Source: Sinorhizobium fredii NGR234
GTDB lineage: Bacteria > Pseudomonadota > Alphaproteobacteria > Rhizobiales > Rhizobiaceae
NCBI RefSeq assembly: GCF_000018545.1
Contig: NC_012587.1
Coordinates: 2,480,001 to 2,544,000, forward strand
DNA: 64,000 bases
Direction of reading: 5' to 3'
The number at the start of each line of letters is the position of its first letter. Position 1 is the stretch's first letter. Below, piece by piece: positions 4,488 to 50,982 of the stretch. The notes below the pieces were generated by a model. It ran no database searches, was not told the origin of the DNA, and saw only the letters and a program-made list of their open reading frames with translations. The position numbers were made by a program, and so were the translations under genes.

Positions 4488-6824
4488 ATGGATAAGTCCA
4501 CCTTCGAAGACCGCCAAAGCATCGCCGGCCCCATGCACAGTGAGCTCCGCCATGACAGCGCCCACAAGCACGTCGCCGGGACCGCCGATTATATCGACGA
4601 CATTCCGGAGCCCGCCGGAATCTTGCACGGCGCGCTTGGCCTCACGGACCGGGCACACGCCGAAATCATGGACATGGACCTCTCGGCTGTGGCCGCCCTT
4701 CCCGGCGTCGTCTCAGTACTGACCGCAAAGGACATGCCGCATTCGAACGACATCAGCCCCACCCACCTGCACGACGAACCGGTGCTTGCCGACGGTCGCG
4801 TGCAGTTCCACGGGCAGCCGGCCTTTGCGGTCATCGCCGAGACGCGCGACATAGCCCGCCGTGCCGCGCGGCTTGCGAAGATCACCTATCGCGACCTGCC
4901 CCACATGATCGATGTCGCCGACGCGATGGCCGGGGGCGGCGAGCTCGTCACGCCGCCCCTGACGCTGCAGCGCGGCGACGCGGAAGGCGAACTGGAGCGC
5001 GCACCACGCCGGCTCAAGGGCCGGATGCGGATCGGCGGCCAGGAGCACTTCTATCTGGAAGGACACATCGCGCTCGCGGTTCCCGGCGAGGACGACGAGA
5101 TGGCCGTCTGGGTGTCGACGCAGCATCCGAGCGAGGTCCAGCACATGGTCGCGCAGGTGCTCGGCGTTCCATCGAATGCCGTGACGGTGAATGTCCGCCG
5201 CATGGGCGGCGGCTTCGGCGGCAAGGAAACGCAGGGCAACCAGTTCGCCGCACTCGCCGCCGTCGCCGCGCGCAAGCTGCGCCGCGCCGTGAAATTCCGC
5301 CCCGACCGCGACGACGACATGGTGGCCACCGGCAAGCGCCACGATTTCCTCGTCGATTACGATGTCGGCTTCGATGAGGACGGGCAGATCCTGGCGGTCC
5401 ACGCCACCTATGCGGCGCGCTGCGGTTTTTCCGCCGATCTATCCGGACCGGTCACCGACCGGGCGCTCTTCCACGCCGATAACGCCTACTACTATCCGCA
5501 TGTGAAGCTGACATCGCAACCGCTGAAGACCAATACGGTTTCCAACACCGCCTTTCGCGGCTTCGGCGGGCCGCAAGGCATGGTCGGCGGCGAGCGGATC
5601 ATCGAGGAGGTCGCCTTTGCGCTCGGCAAGGACCCGCTCGAAATCCGCAAGCAAAACTTCTACGGCGACAAGGATTCGGATCGCAACGTCACGCCATACC
5701 ACCAGAAGATCGAAGACAACATCATCCGGCAGATCGTCGAGGAACTGGAGACGAGTGCCGAGTACCAGGCGCGGCGGGCCGCGATCATCGACTTCAATAG
5801 ATCGAGCCGCGTGATCCGCAAGGGCATCGCGCTGACGCCGGTGAAGTTCGGCATCTCCTTCACGCTCACCCATCTCAATCAGGCGGGCGCCCTCGTCCAT
5901 GTCTATAATGACGGTTCGGTCCACCTCAACCATGGTGGCACCGAGATGGGCCAGGGCCTCTACACCAAGGTGGCGCAGGTTCTGGCCGACAGCTTCCAGA
6001 TCGACATCGACCGCGTGAAGATCACCGCGACGACGACCGGCAAGGTGCCGAACACCTCGGCAACTGCCGCCTCATCGGGCTCCGACCTTAACGGCATGGC
6101 CGCTTTCGACGCAGCCCGCCAGATCAAGGAACGCCTCGTCGCCTTCGCCGCCGAACGCTGGCAGACGACGCCCGACAATATCAGCTTCGTGCCGAACCAT
6201 GTGAAGATCGGCGAGGAGCTCGTGCCCTTCGCGGAACTCATCGGCCAAGCCTATGTCGCGCGTGTGCAGCTTTCGGCCGCCGGCTTCTACAAGACGCCGA
6301 AAATCCATTGGGACCGCGCCGCCGGGCGCGGCACGCCCTTCTACTATTTCGCCTATGGCGCGGCAGTCTCCGAAGTATCGATCGACACGCTGACCGGCGA
6401 ATATCTGGTCGACCGCGTCGATGTGCTGCACGACGTCGGCCGCTCGCTCAATCCGGCGATCGACCTCGGCCAGGTCGAGGGCGGCTTCGTGCAAGGCATG
6501 GGCTGGCTGACGACGGAGGAACTCTGGTGGGACGAGAAGGGGCGGCTGAGGACGCACGCTCCCTCCACCTACAAGATTCCCCTCGCCTCGGATCGGCCGA
6601 AGATCTTCGACGTGCGCCTCGCCGAATGGTCGGAAAACGCCGAAAAGACGGTCGGCCGCTCGAAGGCGGTGGGAGAGCCGCCCCTGATGCTGCCGATCTC
6701 GGTGCTCGAGGCGCTGTCGATGGCGGTCGCCAGCGTCGCCGACTATCGCGAATGTCCCCGCCTCGATACGCCGGCAACGCCGGAGCGGGTGTTGATGGCG
6801 GTGGAGCGGCTCAGGGGCCTCTAA
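4488..6824 (+). CDS. xdhB: Xanthine dehydrogenase, molybdopterin-binding large subunit
   Basis: The 778-residue protein is the catalytic subunit of xanthine dehydrogenase. It shows the molybdopterin and substrate signatures in order: GGGFGGKETQG, FRGFGGPQGM, GGTEMGQGLY, and near the C-terminus VGEPP, whose glutamate is the catalytic base in this family. The ATG at 4488 is chosen because AGGGAGG lies just upstream and the earlier in-frame ATG falls inside the repeat block. Length and motifs match XdhB of the XdhABC type. No XdhC cofactor-insertion gene follows; a second repeat block and a LysR regulator come next. Confidence 0.95.
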   Translation: MDKSTFEDRQSIAGPMHSELRHDSAHKHVAGTADYIDDIPEPAGILHGALGLTDRAHAEIMDMDLSAVAALPGVVSVLTAKDMPHSNDISPTHLHDEPVLADGRVQFHGQPAFAVIAETRDIARRAARLAKITYRDLPHMIDVADAMAGGGELVTPPLTLQRGDAEGELERAPRRLKGRMRIGGQEHFYLEGHIALAVPGEDDEMAVWVSTQHPSEVQHMVAQVLGVPSNAVTVNVRRMGGGFGGKETQGNQFAALAAVAARKLRRAVKFRPDRDDDMVATGKRHDFLVDYDVGFDEDGQILAVHATYAARCGFSADLSGPVTDRALFHADNAYYYPHVKLTSQPLKTNTVSNTAFRGFGGPQGMVGGERIIEEVAFALGKDPLEIRKQNFYGDKDSDRNVTPYHQKIEDNIIRQIVEELETSAEYQARRAAIIDFNRSSRVIRKGIALTPVKFGISFTLTHLNQAGALVHVYNDGSVHLNHGGTEMGQGLYTKVAQVLADSFQIDIDRVKITATTTGKVPNTSATAASSGSDLNGMAAFDAARQIKERLVAFAAERWQTTPDNISFVPNHVKIGEELVPFAELIGQAYVARVQLSAAGFYKTPKIHWDRAAGRGTPFYYFAYGAAVSEVSIDTLTGEYLVDRVDVLHDVGRSLNPAIDLGQVEGGFVQGMGWLTTEELWWDEKGRLRTHAPSTYKIPLASDRPKIFDVRLAEWSENAEKTVGRSKAVGEPPLMLPISVLEALSMAVASVADYRECPRLDTPATPERVLMAVERLRGL

Positions 6825-7419: not shown

Positions 7420-8322
7420 ATGAAGATGTCGAAGCAGTTTCCGCTGAATGCCCTGAGGGTCTTCGAGGCGGCCGCCCGGCTCGGCAGCTTCACCAGGGCG
7501 GGCGAGGAACTCGGCATGACCCAGACGGCGGTCAGCTACCAGATCAAGCTGATCGAGGAGAGCGTCGGCGAGCCGCTGTTTCTGAGGCGTCCCCGGCAGG
7601 TGACGCTGACGGAAGTCGGTCAAAGGCTGGCGCCAAAGGTGACCGAAGCCTTCGAACTGCTGCTGGAGGCGGTAACCTCGGCGCGCACCGATGCCGATAC
7701 GGCCCTCTTCATCCACTCGACGCCGACTTTTGCCTCGCAATGGCTGGCGCGCAATATCGGCACCTTTCAGATCGCCCATCCGCATATCTCGGTACGGCTG
7801 GCAACGGCCGACAAGGTCATCGATTTCGGGAAAGAAGCTGCAGACATCGCCATCCGCTACGGTGACGGCAACTGGCCGGGGCTCACCTGCCATCCGTTGA
7901 TGCGGGTGGAGTTCACGCCGATGCTGAGCCCGGCCCTTGCCGAGACCATCGGCGGCGTGCATGAGCCGCGCGACCTTCTGAAGCTCAGGATCATCGATCC
8001 GAACGACCCCTGGTGGGAGCAATGGTTCCGCGCCGCCGGCGTCGAAAATCCGGAGCTTGCCGGCCGCCCCGCCAGCCGATTGGGCGCCCAGGCATTCGAG
8101 GCACGCGCCGCCGTCGCCGGCCAGGGCGTCGCCATCCTGACGCCGGACTTCTATAGCGACGACGTCGCGCTCGGCCGGCTCTACCAACCCTTCGACCTCC
8201 GCTGCAACGACAGTCACGACTATTGGCTGGTCTATCCGCATGCCCGCCGCAACGCCCCCAAGATTCGTGCCTTTCGCGACTGGATCCTCGGCGAGCTCAA
8301 TCCATCTTTAAGCCAGTTCTGA
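7420..8322 (+). CDS. LysR-family transcriptional regulator (GcvA-like)
   Basis: The 300-residue protein begins with the GcvA-type helix-turn-helix (PLNALRVFEAAARLGSFTRAGEELGM, shown here only in part) and continues into a LysR substrate-binding domain. Length and domain order are normal. The start at 7420 (MKMSKQF) is chosen over the ATG at 7399 because family members begin at this point. It lies between xdhAB and puuD-guaD on the same strand, so it is a natural candidate for control of purine catabolism. That role and its ligand are inferred from position only. Confidence 0.85.
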   Translation: MKMSKQFPLNALRVFEAAARLGSFTRAGEELGMTQTAVSYQIKLIEESVGEPLFLRRPRQVTLTEVGQRLAPKVTEAFELLLEAVTSARTDADTALFIHSTPTFASQWLARNIGTFQIAHPHISVRLATADKVIDFGKEAADIAIRYGDGNWPGLTCHPLMRVEFTPMLSPALAETIGGVHEPRDLLKLRIIDPNDPWWEQWFRAAGVENPELAGRPASRLGAQAFEARAAVAGQGVAILTPDFYSDDVALGRLYQPFDLRCNDSHDYWLVYPHARRNAPKIRAFRDWILGELNPSLSQF

Positions 8323-41940: not shown

Positions 41941-42981
41941 ATGAAATCCGTTTTGAAGCTGATGGCAGGGGCTGCCATCATCGCGTCCATGCATTCCGCA
42001 GCGGTCGCCAAGGACCTCGTCATCGGCGTTTCCTGGTCGAACTTCCAGGAAGAGCGCTGGAAGACCGACGAGGCGGCCATCAAGGCAGCGCTCGAGGCCT
42101 CCGGCGACAAATATATTTCCGCTGACGCGCAGTCCTCTGCCGCCAAGCAGCTCACCGACATCGAATCGCTGATCGCCCAGGGCGCCAATGCGCTGATCGT
42201 GCTTGCGCAGGACTCCGACGCGATTGCCCCGGCGATCGAAAAGGCCACCGCCGAGGGCATCCCGGTCGTCGGCTACGACCGCCTGATCGAGAACCCGGCC
42301 GCCTTCTACATCACCTTCGACAACAAGGAAGTGGGCCGCCTGCAGGCCCGTGAAGTGTTCAAGGCGAAGCCGGAAGGCAATTTCGTCTTCATCAAGGGCT
42401 CCTCCTCCGACCCGAACGCCGACTTCCTGTTCGCCGGCCAGATGGAAGTGCTGAAGGAAGCGGTCGACGCCGGCAAGGTCAAGAATGTCGGTGAGGCCTA
42501 TACGGACGGCTGGAAGCCGGAAAACGCCCAGAAGAACATGGAGCAGTTCCTGACCGCCAACGACAACAAGGTCGATGCGGTCGTCGCCTCGAACGACGGT
42601 ACCGCCGGCGGCGCGATCGCGGCGCTTTCGGCCCAGGGCCTTGCCGGCTCGGTTCCGGTCTCCGGCCAGGATGGCGACCATGCGGCGTTGAACCGCGTGG
42701 CGCTCGGCACGCAGACCGTCTCCGTCTGGAAGGACGCCCGCGACCTCGGCAAGAATGCGGCCGAAATCGCCGCGCTGCTCGCCGGCGGCAAGACCATGGA
42801 TCAGATCGAAGGCGTCGAGACCTTCAACGGCGGCCCGAAGGGCGTCGCCATGAAGTCGGTCTTCCTGACGCCGGTGGCGATCACCAGGGACAATCTGAAT
42901 GTCGTCATCGACGCCGGCTGGATCTCCAAGGACGCCGCCTGCCAGGGCGTGGCTGCCGGCTCCGTCGCCGCCTGCAAGTGA
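41941..42981 (+). CDS. xylF: D-xylose-binding periplasmic protein
   Basis: The 346-residue protein has a signal peptide (about 1-23, ending SAAVA before KDLVIG) and matches XylF, with [48 protein letters not shown] (first part) and [19 protein letters not shown]. It binds xylose in the periplasm and delivers it to XylH/XylG. GGAGGATAAA directly precedes the ATG. A strong hairpin follows the gene. Confidence 0.93.
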
Positions 42982-43006
42982 CGGACGGGCTTTTGCATTG
43001 ACCTCG

Positions 43007-43035
43007 AACGCCGCAACGTCACCCGTTGCGGCGTT
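43007..43035 (+). terminator. Hairpin after xylF, likely attenuator
   Basis: A perfect 12-bp stem AACGCCGCAACG/CGTTGCGGCGTT with a five-base loop begins 25 bases after the xylF stop and is followed by TTG. It mirrors the hairpin after chvE and probably raises the ratio of binding protein to membrane components. Confidence 0.6.
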
Positions 43036-43107
43036 TGCATGAGGTCGGAACGGTTCCGCGCGCGGGTGGTATGATTGCGGCGACGCCTCGTGAGCGACCG
43101 GTAACAC

Positions 43108-43211
43108 CTACAGCGCCGTGCGTCTTTTCAGACGCACAAAAGGTCGCTGTAGCACTTTGAATTGCGGCATGTTTTTGTCCTTGATCGCGTACGATTCAAG
43201 GAAACATGCAG
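43108..43211. repeat. Sinorhizobium-type intergenic repeat, copy 2
   Basis: This is the same roughly 102-base element as at 22053-22154, in opposite orientation, running from CTACAGCGCCGTGCG to AAACATGCAG. It has nested inverted arms (GTGCGTCT/AGACGCAC around TTTTC, and GCATGTTT/AAACATGC). It lies between the xylF hairpin and the xylH start and ends 23 bases before xylH. Confidence 0.8.
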
Positions 43212-43234
43212 AAAATCAGTGGGGGACGGCGGCT

Positions 43235-44551
43235 ATGGCCGATACGACAACACATACCGCACCTTTCAATCGCGCCCGCAGCGCGGAGGAAAGCCCGGTG
43301 AAGCGCTTCTTCCGCGCCACCGAAATCGACACGCGCCTGCTCGGCATGGTCGGGGCGATGCTGATCATCTGGATCGGCTTCCATCTCCTGTCCGGCGGCC
43401 TGTTCCTGACGGCGCGCAACCTCTGGAACCTGTCGGTGCAGACCGCCTCGATCGCCGTCATGGCGACCGGGATGGTGCTGGTCATCGTCACCCGCAACAT
43501 CGACCTCTCGGTCGGTTCGATTCTCGGCTTCGTCGGCATGATCATGGGCGTGCTGCAGGCGGAGCTGCTGCCGCAGTTGCTCGGCTTCAACCACCCGGCC
43601 ACCTGGATCATCACGCTGCTGGCGGGCCTGTTGCTCGGCGCCGGCATCGGCGCGCTCCACGGGGTGATCATCGCCTTCCTGAACGTGCCGTCCTTCATCG
43701 TCACGCTCGGCGGACTGCTCGTCTGGCGCGGCGCCACCTGGTTCGTGACGAGCGGCCGCACCGTCGCACCGATGGACTCGACCTTCCGCCTGATGGGCGG
43801 CGGCACCGAGGGATCGATCGGCGCGACGGCGAGCTGGATCGTCGGGCTCATCGCCTGCGTCGCGATCGTCGCCAGCATCATCCATTCGCGCAAGCAGCGC
43901 AAACGCTTCGGCTTTCCGCGCCGCCCGATCTGGGCCGAGTATTTCCTGTCGTCGGTCGGTTGCGCCCTCGTGCTCGGCGCCGTGGCGATCGCCAACTATT
44001 ATCCCTGGCCGACCAACATCGCCCGCAAATACGCCGAGGCCAACGGCATCGCCTGGCCGGAGGGCGGCCTGTTCATCGCCCACGGCATCGCCATTCCGGT
44101 GCTGATCGCCATCCTGATCGGCATCATCATGACCTTCATCGCCACGCGCCTCCGCTTCGGCCGCTACGTCTTCGCGCTCGGCGGCAACCCGGAAGCGGCC
44201 GAGCTTGCCGGCATCAAGACGCGCTGGGTCACCGTGCGGATATTCGCGCTGATGGGCATGCTCTGCGCCGTCGCCGCGGCGATCTCGACGGCCCGCCTCA
44301 ATGCGGCAACCAACGCCCAGGGCGAGCTCGACGAGCTCTACACGATCGCCGCGGCCGTCATCGGCGGCACCTCGCTTGCCGGCGGCATGGGAACCATCGC
44401 CGGCGCCATGCTCGGCGCGCTCGTCATGCAATCGCTGCAGTCGGGCATGGTGCTGCTCGGCATCGATAGCCCGCTGCAGCGCATCGTCGTCGGCATGGTG
44501 CTCGTCACCGCCGTCTGGCTCGACACCGTCTACCGCGCCCGCGCCAAGTAA
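43235..44551 (+). CDS. xylH: D-xylose ABC transporter permease
   Basis: The 438-residue inner-membrane protein is a XylH-type permease with about ten to twelve hydrophobic segments. NIDLSVGSILGFVGMIMG, VPSFIVTLGGLLVWRG and the coupling loop GGNPEAAELAGIKT are typical. The start MADTTTHT at 43235 follows a GGGGGACGG site and gives a cytoplasmic N-tail of about 35 residues. It is somewhat longer than enterobacterial XylH. The xylG gene follows after 15 bases. Confidence 0.92.
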   Translation: MADTTTHTAPFNRARSAEESPVKRFFRATEIDTRLLGMVGAMLIIWIGFHLLSGGLFLTARNLWNLSVQTASIAVMATGMVLVIVTRNIDLSVGSILGFVGMIMGVLQAELLPQLLGFNHPATWIITLLAGLLLGAGIGALHGVIIAFLNVPSFIVTLGGLLVWRGATWFVTSGRTVAPMDSTFRLMGGGTEGSIGATASWIVGLIACVAIVASIIHSRKQRKRFGFPRRPIWAEYFLSSVGCALVLGAVAIANYYPWPTNIARKYAEANGIAWPEGGLFIAHGIAIPVLIAILIGIIMTFIATRLRFGRYVFALGGNPEAAELAGIKTRWVTVRIFALMGMLCAVAAAISTARLNAATNAQGELDELYTIAAAVIGGTSLAGGMGTIAGAMLGALVMQSLQSGMVLLGIDSPLQRIVVGMVLVTAVWLDTVYRARAK

Positions 44552-44566
44552 TCAGGAGTTCGAACG

Positions 44567-45352
<786 letters not shown>

Positions 45353-45444
45353 GGCCCAAATGGCTTGAGGCAGGCCGGTCGACCAAGGCCTGAAGCGCCC
45401 CCGAACACCGCTGCAGCGCCGGTCGACCAATCCGCTCAAGCCTG

Positions 45445-45475
45445 AATGCCGCATCCCCCGGGGTGCGGCATTTTT
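45445..45475 (+). terminator. Rho-independent terminator after xylG
   Basis: A stem AATGCCGCA/TGCGGCATT, extended inward by CCCC/GGGG, is followed by a run of five T's. This is a canonical terminator for the xylFHG transcript. Confidence 0.85.
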
Positions 45476-45637
45476 CTTGGGCCGGCTGCGCAGCGAAAAC
45501 GATGCGCCGCGACCACAGCCCGCCAGCGGAAAGCGCGTTTCCCCCACAATCTCTTGCAATTGACCATTGAAGCGGCACGCAAGCTAGGCTAAGAACCGCT
45601 CACAGCCTGCTTCGGCGGCCTTGGCCGCCCAACGGAT

Positions 45638-45714
45638 GCACCCGTAGCTCAGCTGGATAGAGTGTTGGATTCCGATTCCAAAGGTCACAGGTTCGAATCC
45701 TGTCGGGTGCGCCA
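45638..45714 (+). tRNA. tRNA-Arg(CCG)
   Basis: The 77-base gene folds as a cloverleaf: acceptor GCACCCG with CGGGTGC, D-arm containing AGCTCAGCTGGATAGAG, anticodon stem TTGGA/TCCAA around loop TTCCGAT with anticodon CCG, and T-arm with GGTTCGAATCC. The discriminator G and an encoded CCA end it. It reads CGG codons, used often in this GC-rich DNA. The less GC-rich islet begins directly downstream, as is usual for tRNA-linked insertions. Confidence 0.97.
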
Positions 45715-45875
45715 TTTCGCATTTTTCTGCGTCACCGCATAAAGCGGACTGAGTGAGTGGATACCGCTATACGCGGACTCTGAACCAATAAGTGTGGACT
45801 CGTAAAATCTCGCGAGGGCAAGTGGACAGCCTTCTCGTCGAGCGGAGCTCGCCGACCATTCGCATCCACTGTCCG

Positions 45876-46604
45876 CTACGAAGAAAATGTCTCGAAGACG
45901 TTCAGGAGTAACATCTCGATGTGGCTTGCCACCATGTTTGGGCCGGTCTTCAGACTGTTGGGATGCCCGCATCCGTTTCGGAGTTTGAGGGCCTTCTGTA
46001 GTTCTTCCTTGACGTTCTTGCCGATGACGCCGATCGGAACGAGCCGCTCGAGAAAGTCGGACTCTCCCATGCGTGAAAGACCGTCTGCATTCACAGCGTC
46101 CTTCCATTTCACGTTGACAGCTTTCGCTTCCTTGTTGAACGCCAGCAGGTGGTGGGTTGCGATCTCATGATAAAGGACATCCACGGCCGCGATCCAGGAC
46201 ATCACGATAGCTGACCGATGCAGACCCGCTTCGTAGCAGTTGATGGCCTCTTCGACGAAGGCCCTTGTGGTCGCGTTTTTGATCTTGTCGAGATGCCCTC
46301 TAAGATCAACCGCGATCCGGACGGCCGCAGAATTGGCGAGCCCCACGCCCATCGCCTGAAGGTGGGCCTTGCCTGACTGGGAGAGCTCCCATCCGGCTGG
46401 CAATCGCAGCGCCATGCCTCCGCTCTTTCCGAGAATGTCCGACAGGTTCCATTTCTTAGGGATGCGAAATCCGGCTTGGATGGCGCGGTCTCGGATGTCA
46501 TCCAGCTTCGCCGGCTCGTCGAATGCTCCGAGTATGAGGAGCAGCTTCTCCCGACTGCTCAGGTCGCGATGAAGCCATTCCTTCAGTACCGTCACATCAA
46601 GCAA
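45876..46604 (-). CDS. Winged-helix and HEPN-like protein (putative RNase, defence candidate)
   Basis: I do not recognise a named family for this 242-residue protein. The N-terminal part (about 15-90) looks like a winged helix (LSSREKLLLILGAFDEPAKL, then IPKKWNLSDILGKSGGMALRL in part). The C-terminal part (about 110-242) is helical and ends with R209-NGCG-H214, an R-N-x3-H motif of HEPN ribonucleases. Start is TTG 46604 with GGAAG ahead; it overlaps its partner's stop region by eight bases. Base composition is visibly less GC-rich than the flanks. Toxin, abortive-infection or RNA-processing roles are possible; none is shown. Confidence 0.6.
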   Translation of the reverse strand: MLDVTVLKEWLHRDLSSREKLLLILGAFDEPAKLDDIRDRAIQAGFRIPKKWNLSDILGKSGGMALRLPAGWELSQSGKAHLQAMGVGLANSAAVRIAVDLRGHLDKIKNATTRAFVEEAINCYEAGLHRSAIVMSWIAAVDVLYHEIATHHLLAFNKEAKAVNVKWKDAVNADGLSRMGESDFLERLVPIGVIGKNVKEELQKALKLRNGCGHPNSLKTGPNMVASHIEMLLLNVFETFSS

Positions 46605-47085
46605 GCTGAGCTTCCAACTCTGTAAACGCGTCGATATTCAACGAATAGACGCCGTCACTGATCTGGTTAAATTTCGATCCGATCAACGTGCCGAGCGCCT
46701 TGGTCAGATTGCCGGACATGGATTCCTTGTAATGCATGGTGGCCTTCTTCATCGTGTCGAGAAGTTCACCGCGGGTGAAGGTTTCCTTACCCTCGAAGAT
46801 TTGCAATGTTGCGGCTGCCGCCAGAGCTACCTCGCTTCCACTTTTTGCTTTGAGCTTGGATGCGACGCTATTGATGTGAAGCTTCTGCGAATAACCGTTC
46901 GATCTGGGTACCGGTTGCTCATGATGAGGCGTATGGCTCCCCTCTCCACCCTCGGCGAGTACCGGAACCTTGAAGAGCGTCTCTATGTGTGAAAAGAGCT
47001 CCTTAATGTCTGCGACGCCGAGTTCAGTCTCTCCTTCGTACTCGAACTCCACCGGCCCAGCCTTGATCCGAATCTTTGCGGTCAT
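46597..47085 (-). CDS. Unknown protein, upstream partner of the HEPN-like gene
   Basis: The 162-residue product begins MTAKIRIKAGPVEFEYEGET, a beta-rich start followed by a helix (VADIKELFSHIETLF), a linker rich in Gly, Ser, His and Pro (about 45-60), and a C-terminal half (about 75-162) that looks like a helical or winged-helix domain (GELLDTMKKATMHYKESMSGNL in part). GGGAGG precedes the start at 47085. It overlaps the HEPN-like gene, so the two are co-translated. I do not recognise the family. It could be an antitoxin, sensor or adaptor for its partner. Confidence 0.6.
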   Translation of the reverse strand: MTAKIRIKAGPVEFEYEGETELGVADIKELFSHIETLFKVPVLAEGGEGSHTPHHEQPVPRSNGYSQKLHINSVASKLKAKSGSEVALAAAATLQIFEGKETFTRGELLDTMKKATMHYKESMSGNLTKALGTLIGSKFNQISDGVYSLNIDAFTELEAQLA

Positions 47086-47375
47086 CCCAACCTCCCAAAC
47101 TGTTAAAGTGGAATGACGTGACGAGTCCTTAATCGCTGTCAAGTTGTGGCCGTCATACTGGGCGACTGTCGAGGCAGTTGTGCAGATCTTTTACTGGGTC
47201 GTTGTGGAATGATGCAAACATTTCGACCCTGTGCCTTTACCACCTTCTCCTGCACCTCGGGTCGCGTTATTCTGAAGCAATAAAACCCGGGCCAGTTTGG
47301 GAAAGTTGGTCTCCCTCGTACCAGCACTTTTCCTGCCCCCCATTGCAGTCATCCTCTTACTCACCCGAGGCAATC

Positions 47376-47672
47376 ATGACCGCGTTCAATGTCGTTCGAT
47401 TCAAGGTAAAGGCCGGCATGGAGGACATCTTCCTCGATGCGCACCGCAACATCGCGGCGGCCTGGCCCGGCATGCGTCACGCCAATATCGTCAAGACCGG
47501 CGAAGGCCGCTACTGCATCATCGTCGAGTGGGAGAGCATGGAGGCGCTGGCCGCGGCGCGGCCCCAGATGATTGCCACGCTCGACAGCTTCCGCGAGGCG
47601 CTCGAGGACCTGGGTGGCGGGTTGGGCGTGACCGATCCGGTGGCGGGATCGGTTGTCCTCTCGTTGAAATAG
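47376..47672 (+). CDS. Antibiotic biosynthesis monooxygenase (ABM) domain protein
   Basis: The 98-residue protein has a single ABM/dimeric alpha-beta-barrel fold. The strand NVVRFKVKAGMEDIFLDAH and the segment YCIIVEWESMEALAAARP are typical. Such proteins are small monooxygenases or stress-related dimers with no cofactor. The start ATG 47376 follows CGAGG. It lies at the right boundary of the islet, where base composition returns to that of the flanks. Confidence 0.75.
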   Translation: MTAFNVVRFKVKAGMEDIFLDAHRNIAAAWPGMRHANIVKTGEGRYCIIVEWESMEALAAARPQMIATLDSFREALEDLGGGLGVTDPVAGSVVLSLK

Positions 47673-47739
47673 AAATCGCGCAAGCTCGTTCAGCGCCGCC
47701 CGTGTCCAGCGCCTTCGCAGGATAGGCGATCGGAACGCA

Positions 47740-48483
47740 TCAACTCTTGAACAAGACGTGCGCCGGCACGGGATGGTCGATGCCCTTGAGCGTGAAGCTT
47801 CGCGTTTGCGTGCCGGCCATCAGGTCCGGCGCCTGCACCGCTGCCTCGACCGAGACCAATATCTCGCCTGCGGCCGCCTGGGATTCAAGCCTTGCGGCCA
47901 GATTGACCGCACTGCCGATCGCCGTGAAGTCGCTGCGGAAGGTCGAGAACTCGCCGATCTCCACCTGACCGGTATGAACCCCGACGCCGACGCCGAGCGC
48001 CTCGAGCGAAGGCCCATCAAGGCGCAAATCCAGGCTCGCAAGGGCCGAAGTGCAGGATCGCTGGATGTCGAGTGCAGCCGCGAGCGCCGCGTCGACATGA
48101 TGCTTGATCTTTATCGGGAAGTTGAAGATCGCCATCAGGCCGTCGCCCATCTGCTTGTTGACGATCCCGTCGTGAGCCCAGACCGCCTGGGCGCATCGGT
48201 CCTGGAAGGCGCTGACGATTTCACTCAGGAGGACCGGGTCCATCCTCTCCGAGAGGAGCGTGAAACCGCGAATGTCGGCAAACAGGATCGTTGCGGTGTC
48301 AGAGATATGGCGCTGCTTCTTGACGTATCGAAAGGAGCGCTCGCAGATCGTGCAGATGTTCGGGTTCATCTTGCTCCGGGTGATGCCGAAGGCGCGAAAC
48401 GGAAGCGCCAGCGGACCCCGGATCGGGATAGGCACGTGCATCTGGTCCCAGCAGCCACGGCAGATGCGAGCGGTCGAATCCAT
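47740..48483 (-). CDS. Class III adenylate/guanylate cyclase with N-terminal cysteine pairs
   Basis: The 247-residue protein has an N-terminal region with CRGC (about 8-11) and CTIC (about 44-47), a likely zinc site, then a class III cyclase domain (about 60-245). Catalytic elements are visible: FADIRGFT with the first metal aspartate, NKQMGDGLMAIF with the second, and IGSAVNLAARLE with the transition-state Asn and Arg. It should make cAMP in the cytoplasm. AGGAGG precedes the ATG. Rhizobia have many such cyclases, each with its own sensor part. No partner gene is evident. Confidence 0.87.
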   Translation of the reverse strand: MDSTARICRGCWDQMHVPIPIRGPLALPFRAFGITRSKMNPNICTICERSFRYVKKQRHISDTATILFADIRGFTLLSERMDPVLLSEIVSAFQDRCAQAVWAHDGIVNKQMGDGLMAIFNFPIKIKHHVDAALAAALDIQRSCTSALASLDLRLDGPSLEALGVGVGVHTGQVEIGEFSTFRSDFTAIGSAVNLAARLESQAAAGEILVSVEAAVQAPDLMAGTQTRSFTLKGIDHPVPAHVLFKS

Positions 48484-48662
48484 CTGAACGGTCCTCCTGG
48501 TTTTCGGTCGTTCCGGCTACAGCGCCGTGCCGTCTTTTCAAGCACCACTGTACACGAGAGAAACGTATTGCGCTTCGTCGGTTGCGGTACGGCAGGTCTT
48601 CTCCTCCATTCCTGCGCTCGTCACAGTTGCCAGCCAGCCCAAATCCTTGGCTGAAAAGACTC

Positions 48663-49022
48663 TTACCGATGCTCCTCCAGCCACCGCTTCAGCGCCATCG
48701 CATTGTTGTGACTCTCGTCGCGCGCCGCATAGAGCAGCGTCACCGGCCCTTTCTTGAGAAATCCGCGCAGTTCTTTCACTGCCGCCTGCGGCCCCTCGCC
48801 TTCCAGTTCCGCCGCATAGGCCTCGCAGAACGCCTGCCAATCCTCCGGCTTGCCATGGAAGCGCTTGCGCAACGCGTCGCTCGGCGCGATGTCCTTCAGC
48901 CAGAGGTCGATCCGCGCCTTGTCCTTGGCGATGCCGCGCGGCCACAGGCGGTCGACGAGAATGCGCGTTCCGTCCGAGGCTTCCGGGGCCTCATAGACGC
49001 GTTTCAGCTTGAGTGATGCCAT
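48663..49022 (-). CDS. DUF488 family protein
   Basis: The 119-residue protein matches DUF488: LKRVYEAPEASDGTRILVDRLWPRG near the N-terminus (first part) and VTLLYAARDESHNNA later. These small proteins are common and of unknown biochemical role; some are linked to stress. The start at 49022 (MASLKLKRVYE) is chosen for the family N-terminus. It is flanked by the cyclase and the EF-hand gene, all on the minus strand. Confidence 0.82.
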   Translation of the reverse strand: MASLKLKRVYEAPEASDGTRILVDRLWPRGIAKDKARIDLWLKDIAPSDALRKRFHGKPEDWQAFCEAYAAELEGEGPQAAVKELRGFLKKGPVTLLYAARDESHNNAMALKRWLEEHR

Positions 49023-49090
49023 CCGATCCCCGCAAGGAAGTCCCGTCCGGTCGTCACCGCCCGGCAACAGGCGAACGTAGCGAAGCTTCG

Positions 49091-49495
49091 CTAATTGTGG
49101 AAGTACGCCTGGATCTCCTCGGGCGTCGCCTTGCCGTCGCGGTTGACGTCCACCTTGTCGAAGATCCGCTTATGGATGGTGCTGATCTCCTCGAAGGACA
49201 GCGCGCCGTCGTTGTCCGCATCGGTGATGGCGAACATGATCTTCATCATCTGCCGGTGCATCATCCCTCCCCGCATCCTGTGGCCGTACCGCATCCGGTC
49301 GCGCATGCGCTCGCCGCGCCGGCCATCGCGCATTTCGTCGTTGCCCTGCATATCCGGCTGATCCGCCTGCGCGTCCTGGTCCTGATCGGGCATTTGCCCG
49401 GCCGGCGGCATCGGTGCGGGCGTCTGCGCGGCAGCAAAGCCCGACGGGCTGACGATCATCAGCACCGCAAGGGCGGCCACGGTTGGCAATCTCAT
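49091..49495 (-). CDS. Periplasmic EF-hand protein
   Basis: The 134-residue protein starts with a signal peptide (MRLPTVAALAVLMIVSPSG, cleaved near GFAAAQ). A Pro/Gln/Asp-rich stretch follows, then a basic and Met-rich segment (RMRDRMRYGHRMRGGMMHRQ), then two EF-hand loops, DADNDGALSFEE and DVNRDGKATPEE, both with calcium ligands in place. It may bind calcium or another metal in the periplasm. ATG 49495 is used; a second in-frame start three codons upstream is possible. Confidence 0.82.
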   Translation of the reverse strand: MRLPTVAALAVLMIVSPSGFAAAQTPAPMPPAGQMPDQDQDAQADQPDMQGNDEMRDGRRGERMRDRMRYGHRMRGGMMHRQMMKIMFAITDADNDGALSFEEISTIHKRIFDKVDVNRDGKATPEEIQAYFHN

Positions 49496-49533
49496 CGGTG
49501 ACATGGGATTTCCTCCTTCCGTTCGATCCAGAT

Positions 49534-50982
49534 CTAACTGGGCGGGCGTGCCGATTCGGGGCCGGTGGCGGCGGTCTCTCTGACAGCCCGCCAGGCGGCG
49601 ACGATGGCGTCTGCCGCCATCTTCCCGGCCTCGTCATCGATCAACCACGAGATGACCGAAACACGCATCACTTTTCGCCCGTGCCAGGTCGCGCCGCCGG
49701 CGAAGCAGACGCCGTCGGCCTGCAGCCTTTCGATCGTCTGTTGCGTCAGCCGGTCGGCTTGCTCGCCCGGCCGGCCCTCACCGAAGCGGACCATGAACTG
49801 GTTGAGCACGACGTCGTTCAGAACGGCGATGCCGTCTTCGCCGCTCAGCCGCTCGGCCATCTGGCCGGCAACCCGGCAATGCCGCTCGACCATGGTGGCG
49901 ATGCCCTGGCGGCCGAGATGCTTGATCATCGCCCAGGTGGCAAAGCCGCGGGCGCGGCGCGACAGCTCCGGCACGAAATGGCTGGGGTCCCGCTCGCCCT
50001 CAAAGCTCGGTGGCAGATAGCTCGCGGCGATCGTCATCGCCCGGCGATGGGCCTCCTCGTCGCGGACGATGGCGTAGCCGCAATCATAGGGCGTCTGCAG
50101 CCATTTGTGGCCATCGGTCGCCCAGGAATCGGCCCCATCGACCGCTTCGGCCAGCGCCCGCTTCTCCGGGGTGGCACGCGCCCAGAGGCCGAAGGCGCCG
50201 TCGACATGGACCCAGGCGCCGATCCGCCGGGCGACCGGAATGAGCGCGGCGAAATCGTCGAACGCGCCGGTATTGATCTGCCCGGCCTGCAGGATGACGA
50301 TCGACGGGCCGGAAATCTTGGCCGCCTCTTCGGCGAAGGCCGGTGCGCTGATCCGGCCGATGGCGTCGGTCCTGATCCGAACGAGGCGGTCATGCCCGAG
50401 GCCGAGAAATTGCAGCGCCGAAAAGACTGTCGCATGCGCGTCGTCGCCGATCAGCACGGTGACCGGCGGCGCGCCGAAAAGACCCTGCGCCTCGACATCC
50501 CAGCCGACACGCCTCAGCACCGCGCCGCGCGCCGCGGCGAGACAAACGAAGTTCGCCACCGTCGCCCCGGTGACGAAACCGACGGAACTTGCCCGCGGCA
50601 GATCGAGTAGATCGAGCAGCCAGTCGGCTGCAACTGCTTCCGCCGCAGCGGCCGCCGGCGTCGCGTGGTGGTTGCCGGCATTCTGCCCCCAGGCGCTGGT
50701 CATCCAGTCTGCCGCAACGCCGACCGGGTGCGAACCGCCGATCACCCAGCCGAAAAACCGCGATCCGGTCATGGCGTGAAGCCCGGGCTCCGCCTTGACG
50801 GCAAGATCGTCGATCACCTCGCCACCGGATGTCCCCTCCTCCGGAACCGGCTCGCGGAACACCGCCAGCGAGCCGAGATAGGAGACATCGGGCCTTTGGT
50901 GGCGATCGGAAATAGTGTCGCGGAACCGTGCGGCATGTTCTGCCGCGCGGCGAAAAAGGCCACCGACCGATCCGTTATCCAT
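49534..50982 (-). CDS. Pyridoxal-phosphate-dependent decarboxylase family protein
   Basis: The 482-residue protein is a group II PLP decarboxylase (aromatic-L-amino-acid, glutamate or diaminobutyrate type). The PLP lysine lies in TDGHKWLQTPYDCG, the aspartate in HVDGAFGLWA, and GFVTGATVANF binds phosphate. The substrate cannot be told from sequence; PFL-type tyrosine and tryptophan decarboxylases share this form. It lies 54 bases downstream of the flavin oxidase gene on the same strand, suggesting one transcript. Confidence 0.87.
   Translation of the reverse strand: MDNGSVGGLFRRAAEHAARFRDTISDRHQRPDVSYLGSLAVFREPVPEEGTSGGEVIDDLAVKAEPGLHAMTGSRFFGWVIGGSHPVGVAADWMTSAWGQNAGNHHATPAAAAAEAVAADWLLDLLDLPRASSVGFVTGATVANFVCLAAARGAVLRRVGWDVEAQGLFGAPPVTVLIGDDAHATVFSALQFLGLGHDRLVRIRTDAIGRISAPAFAEEAAKISGPSIVILQAGQINTGAFDDFAALIPVARRIGAWVHVDGAFGLWARATPEKRALAEAVDGADSWATDGHKWLQTPYDCGYAIVRDEEAHRRAMTIAASYLPPSFEGERDPSHFVPELSRRARGFATWAMIKHLGRQGIATMVERHCRVAGQMAERLSGEDGIAVLNDVVLNQFMVRFGEGRPGEQADRLTQQTIERLQADGVCFAGGATWHGRKVMRVSVISWLIDDEAGKMAADAIVAAWRAVRETAATGPESARPPS

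Follow-up and report, generated by a model that had tools for sequence, protein, structure and literature searches.

A two-gene islet beside tRNA-Arg(CCG)

The window analysed here is a stretch of 64,000 nucleotides from Sinorhizobium fredii NGR234. It contains a tRNA-Arg(CCG) gene (45638..45714, plus strand), identified with ARAGORN, which is followed by a variable islet of approximately 1.62 kb (45719..47337). Two overlapping genes on the minus strand occupy most of this islet. The first gene (46597..47085, minus strand) encodes a protein of 162 residues when read from its ATG, with the longest frame starting at 47142, and is denoted as the partner. The second gene (45876..46604, minus strand), delineated from the open reading frames and from homologues, starts with TTG and encodes a wHTH-HEPN protein of 242 residues. 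The partner stop and the HEPN start share an 8-bp overlap (46597..46604, minus strand). Beyond the islet lies a small ABM-family gene (PF03992; 47376..47672, plus strand), at which the sequence again becomes homologous to two same-genus loci. The islet has a GC content of 54.5%, whereas its flanks reach 65.4% and 65.1% and the window as a whole averages 63.7%. None of the 1152 other 1.6-kb segments outside the islet zone is as low, and the islet thus represents the GC minimum of the window. The sequence-only reading had described a less GC-rich stretch of two overlapping genes beside this tRNA, and the composition, the tRNA and the minus-strand frames were all reproduced. Its size of about 1.6 kb also held, while its limits were redrawn: in the same-genus loci whose downstream gene lies close to the tRNA, homology restarts at 47338 (G008) and 47355 (G015), and the variable segment therefore spans about 45719–47337.

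No recombinase gene was found by eye in the islet. The 3' end of the tRNA shares no 11-mer with the DNA up to position 50000, no tRNA-end repeat of 16 with at most two mismatches occurs in the 10.3 kb searched, and no direct repeat of at least 13 connects its 1.5-kb flanks. An integrase-bearing genomic island was considered and rejected, since neither a recombinase gene nor a repeat of the target 3' end was found at the window locus.

The second gene encodes a predicted winged-helix-HEPN protein

Structure prediction was run on each protein. The model of the 242-residue protein comprises an N-terminal winged helix (residues 4–88; 46341..46595, minus strand) and a C-terminal HEPN helical fold (residues 107–242; 45879..46286, minus strand). 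The putative catalytic motif, R209-N-G-C-G-H214 (45963..45980, minus strand), was located by ORF translation, alignment and a frame scan. Homologues number 1305 in all; among the 120 listed, 90 are also 242 residues long, every one contains R-N-x3-H, and 115 carry RNGCGHPNSL. R209, N210 and H214 are invariant in 35 of 35 aligned sequences, and all 25 HEPN frames that were scanned retain R-N-x3-H; these frames derive from 22 of the 24 loci described below and from L001, L087 and L088. The motif also appears in the remnant at G768 and in the part behind the stop in the G143 HEPN gene. The winged-helix-like N-terminus and the HEPN-type motif that had been read from the letters are therefore borne out by the model and by conservation, respectively, and the predicted fold is that of HEPN.

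Direct searches returned little. Foldseek gave no match at E ≤ 0.001, viral structures included; NCBIfam returned no family, and the sole Pfam match was VirD1 below the cut-off (E = 0.013). PF27235 occurs as a precomputed annotation on HEPN relatives. In the VIA structure comparison, many values are of a size also seen with unrelated helical or winged-helix models. The modelled fold and the R-x4-6-H-type motif, here R-N-x3-H, nevertheless support placing the protein with the HEPN superfamily. By its sequence, it may act as an endoribonuclease through R209 and H214.

The partner carries a predicted C-terminal winged helix

The ordered part of the partner model is a winged helix (residues 71–161; 46603..46875, minus strand). 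The N-terminal segment is modelled with low confidence; its conserved portion, defined by alignment (residues 2–40; 46966..47082, minus strand), shows two strands, with the rest at low confidence. Winged helices are common in antitoxins and sensors, and the modelled one probably binds DNA, either its own promoter or invading DNA. The partner has no Pfam family and no PADLOC match at E ≤ 1, and no NCBIfam family. Upstream of the partner gene, a sigma-70 promoter scan found none, an operator scan gave nothing above chance, and the repeats are short.

Proteins encoded at the corresponding position elsewhere share, by eye, a design of a short strand-helix segment, a linker and a winged helix. When the profile of the window partner group was compared with those of two distant groups, no significant match resulted. 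We therefore do not claim that all partners descend from one ancestor, and those without such a link are termed partners by position and design. The two distant groups themselves share a winged helix (profile comparison, E = 1e-10). An hhalign match between the HEPN and partner profiles was rejected because it was due to P0227, a partner-family row that, apparently through a frameshift, continues into a HEPN N-terminus.

Several loci have an additional small gene, which carries a conserved QARK motif (L074 8333-8854, L116 7682-8212, L117 5053-5637 and L113 5364-5897). In G222, G866 and G897 it precedes the pair, and in G522 it and the HEPN gene are divergently oriented. Its similarity to the partner is weak (E = 0.0016, probability 16), and the L074 copy has no accepted match in Pfam or PADLOC.

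The two genes are paired across genomes

Four genome searches, each counting the genome of the window itself, yielded 28 distinct HEPN matches. The single-protein query matched 4 of 100 relatives, and the profile query matched 9 of 385 genomes at the level of class, 7 of 398 of phylum and 11 of 397 of order. Four matches with open frames of 449–474 residues (G484, G533, G666 and G1141) were left out, giving 24 loci. Two partner-only matches also stand outside this count: in G298 a short winged-helix-like frame and no HEPN gene was seen after the partner, and in G409 no HEPN gene was seen before the contig start. An intact partner frame lies directly upstream on the same strand at 20 of the 24 HEPN loci. 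The upstream partner frame is broken at two (G021 and G413), and two have no partner (G522 and the remnant G768). Among the 20, G143 has an in-frame stop in its HEPN gene, and the pair is thus broken at three loci, through the partner in G021 and G413 and through the HEPN gene in G143. The longest frames overlap or are spaced by −92 to +6 nt in every one of the 20 pairs for which this was measured (19 from these loci, plus the viral L088).

The homologue lists give a further, indirect sign of pairing, in that a common longest-contig size links 49 of the 120 HEPN rows to 49 of the 120 partner rows, where about 1.6 would be expected after jitter. Together with the motif conserved across homologues, these shared contig sizes indicate that the pattern is not due to chance. 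In addition, HEPN and partner protein distances correlate across 50 pairs, namely the 49 matched by longest-contig size and the window pair (Mantel r = 0.47); none of 5000 permutations reached this value, the highest being 0.38. The search for the pair in other genomes thus revealed a conserved association.

The islet occupies a variable tRNA hotspot

The partner, or a close copy of the HEPN gene, was found in none of the 32 other genomes of the same genus, in which only remote HEPN relatives occur (28% identity in G018 and 25% in G021). The tRNA block is kept in all 17 same-genus loci fetched, and the DNA that follows it varies. The distance to the point where homology with the window restarts is about 480 bp in G015, 1.65 kb in G008 and 3.8–13.9 kb in nine loci; in the other 6 of the 17, homology is not resumed within the fetched 12–20 kb. 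Each of the same-genus loci examined either lacks the islet or has other DNA in its place, and three different contents follow the tRNA in the window, G015 and G008. In G008, an unrelated gene of 370 residues replaces the islet at the same tRNA (L050, tRNA-oriented 936-2048). In G018, another species of the genus, a divergent partner-HEPN pair lies approximately 160 bp after the same tRNA in the opposite orientation, and is best read as an independent arrival. The islet that had been noted next to a tRNA is thus missing from the same locus in relatives and atypical in base composition. These comparisons of sequence support the view that the window pair is a sporadic, recent acquisition at a variable tRNA hotspot, which the tRNA-Arg(CCG) gene anchors.

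The association with tRNA genes extends beyond this locus. At seven of the 24 loci, a tRNA 3' end is at most 600 bp away (G000, G018, G190, G222, G477, G987 and the remnant G768, with G000 and G018 sharing one tRNA), compared with 0.14 expected from the tRNA counts of these genomes (P = 7e-11; P = 5e-9 for the six without G768). Since the model assumes random placement, which hotspots generally violate, the test shows an association with hotspots rather than a special mechanism. Outside the 24 loci, the HEPN gene of L001 lies 0.5 kb from a tRNA-Arg. The G957 pair is located 2.6 kb from a tRNA-Arg(CCG); the island that holds it also contains a serine recombinase gene and XhoI and Eco57I-type genes. 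These findings support an association of the wider wHTH-HEPN class with tRNA 3' ends, which goes further than the sequence-only reading had claimed.

Other targets are the ends of conserved protein-coding genes. The pair lies at the 3' end of uvrA in G897 (family search) and G1122 (frame similarity), and at that of guaA in G021 (family search). The G413 pair sits at the end of a DUF188 gene and is bracketed by a 32-bp repeat. In two relatives, G329 and G1179, the two flanks are contiguous and share a single repeat copy, which makes these loci clean empty sites. G1178 has an M20-family peptidase gene at this gene end, between direct repeats of about 100 bp (L139 2198-3391). The DUF188 gene end appears to be a hotspot for gene-end cassettes. 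The G143 pair is flanked on both sides by direct repeats (254 bp, 95% identical) that derive from the 3' end of a gene that we take to be oxygenase-like (L075 7795-9903). In L094, the pair has a complete tRNA-Ser on one side and a fragment of a second tRNA-Ser on the other (6079-6140 and 8129-8218). A clean duplication was rejected in this case, as the repeat belongs to that fragment, and an empty site for the insertion was sought and not found. Eleven of the 24 loci have no tRNA within 600 bp, no uvrA or guaA gene end, no repeat and no island of the G957 kind.

Neighbours and viral copies

The islet is surrounded by genes for a sugar-type ABC transporter, the ABM-family protein, a nucleotide cyclase, a DUF488 protein and a PLP decarboxylase. 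PADLOC gave no match for six of eight neighbour proteins (41941-50982). The ABC-transporter ATPase (Pfam ABC_tran) matched many PADLOC ATPase models, and the cyclase (47743-48483; Pfam Guanylate_cyc) matched Pycsar cyclase models with a best E of 5e-23. Both are generic domain matches. A Pycsar-like role of the cyclase is possible, and no Pycsar effector was recognised beside it among the eight neighbours. The PADLOC survey of these proteins therefore found no defence island at the window locus; asking whether the pair sits in such islands had been suggested as a check. The other expectations of an acquired HEPN module, namely the fold, the pairing and the acquisition at a tRNA, were borne out.

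The surroundings of the relatives are mixed and include one XhoI-type restriction island, two viral contigs and several lone insertions. On one of the viral contigs, the pair lies beside a capsid gene. On the other (L087 4896-6723), the HEPN relative follows a different partner-like frame, with a gene for a D12-class adenine methylase before it. The HEPN query gave no match at E 1e-5 in plasmid and phage records.

Comparison with known HEPN systems

PD-T7-3 (PADLOC PDLC04108) is reportedly an anti-phage system from the 2022 work of Vassallo et al. Its HEPN domain gives a weak profile match to residues 104–187 of the window protein (E = 2.7e-6), at the start (9–92) of a 432-position profile. 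A table in a review lists PD-T7-3 with a HEPN domain (PMC10952713). In contrast to the single protein of about 430 residues with an N-terminal HEPN domain that defines PD-T7-3, the window system consists of two genes, and its 242-residue protein carries the HEPN domain at the C-terminus. Dandelion and Dandelion-hepn (PDB 9wxf, 9wx2) match the HEPN family profile over about 50 residues (E = 7e-4), and the Dandelion chain has 460 residues compared with 242 in the window protein. A paper on Dandelion was not recognised among the listed literature matches, and the main text of PMC13337447 does not mention it.

The MNT-HEPN toxin-antitoxin system (SO_3166-SO_3165, MntA-HepT) has a HEPN effector in common with the window pair. 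It differs in that the window partner is a winged-helix protein with no nucleotidyltransferase recognisable by Pfam or in the model, and the window HEPN protein has an additional winged helix. The partner has 70 residues outside its winged helix, and a minimal nucleotidyltransferase domain is larger than that. The last 32–34 positions of PDC-M34A, a PADLOC candidate, match the C-terminal partner module of two distant HEPN relatives, L093 (E = 1.9e-8) and L094 (E = 1.6e-8); the window partner has no such match and falls outside PDC-M34. The name PDC-M34A appears in no paper of the open-access literature searched. The phage family phrog_27609, with 418 positions, matches the HEPN part at residues 114–238 (E = 9.5e-10). 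The gene layout is that of type II toxin-antitoxin systems, with two small overlapping or adjacent genes and conserved pairing. A paper describing a wHTH-HEPN pair was not recognised among the listed matches in the open-access literature. The earlier remark that no described system with this pair was known agrees with the families, PADLOC and these literature matches.

Proposed mechanism and alternatives

Considering these findings, the pair most probably comprises a HEPN ribonuclease effector and a DNA-binding controller, forming a toxin-antitoxin-like or abortive-infection-like system carried on a tiny mobile cassette. We assign this sequence-based reading a probability of roughly 0.6; it explains the fold, the motif, the gene overlap, the pairing and the scattered distribution together. 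In this mechanism, the wHTH-HEPN protein would cleave RNA through R209 and H214, most likely across a dimer. The partner would be its cognate controller, in which a flexible linker would join the predicted DNA-binding winged helix to the conserved N-terminal hairpin-helix segment. This segment may keep the HEPN protein inactive, or may relay a trigger such as phage infection. The translational overlap would hold the two proteins in proportion. The pair would move as a very small cassette that inserts at the 3' ends of conserved genes, tRNA genes among them, and would serve as an abortive-infection or addiction module.

The strongest alternative is a pure toxin-antitoxin addiction cassette, in which the pair would serve to maintain the islet or its carrier and would have no anti-phage role. 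The small overlapping genes, with a winged-helix controller encoded first, would suit such a cassette, as would several lone insertions without evident defence neighbours (judged by eye, with PADLOC on a few). However, where the pair is the whole cargo there is little besides itself to maintain, and the viral-contig copies, like the one in a restriction island, are consistent with defence. We regard this alternative as unlikely overall, while noting that addiction and anti-phage abortive systems are not separable by sequence.

It is less probable still that the proteins form a regulatory or nucleic-acid-binding pair with a normal cellular role and a HEPN domain that is not a nuclease. The winged helices modelled in both proteins would accord with this, and the VIA list for the HEPN model includes MtlR, a regulator with a similar fold. 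The R-N-x3-H motif in 25 of 25 frames argues against it, as do the lack of a close copy in 32 of 32 other species of the genus and a distribution bound to hotspots.

That the pair itself inserts the cassette, as a new mobility module instead of cargo, is very improbable: the inserts hold only the pair and no recombinase, and gene ends are duplicated in G143 and G413, but the G1178 peptidase cassette lacks the pair and has repeats at the same gene end as G413, so that machinery acting in trans explains both cassettes, and to our knowledge HEPN domains are not DNA recombinases.

Returning to the effector-controller cassette, we tentatively propose a broader generalisation, which we consider possible and hold with much less confidence than the reading of the window pair. 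The wHTH-HEPN pairs may form a previously undescribed class of minimal cassettes of approximately 1.4–2.1 kb that act in immunity or addiction. They would lack a recombinase, insert at the 3' ends of tRNA and conserved genes, sometimes duplicate the target end, be mobilised in trans and share their sites with unrelated cassettes. If this is right, the pair would represent a recurrent and testable two-protein HEPN system, whose controller is unlike the known nucleotidyltransferase antitoxins. The 3' ends of tRNAs and genes would then collect very small defence cassettes outside the classical defence islands, and screens based on colocalisation could miss them.
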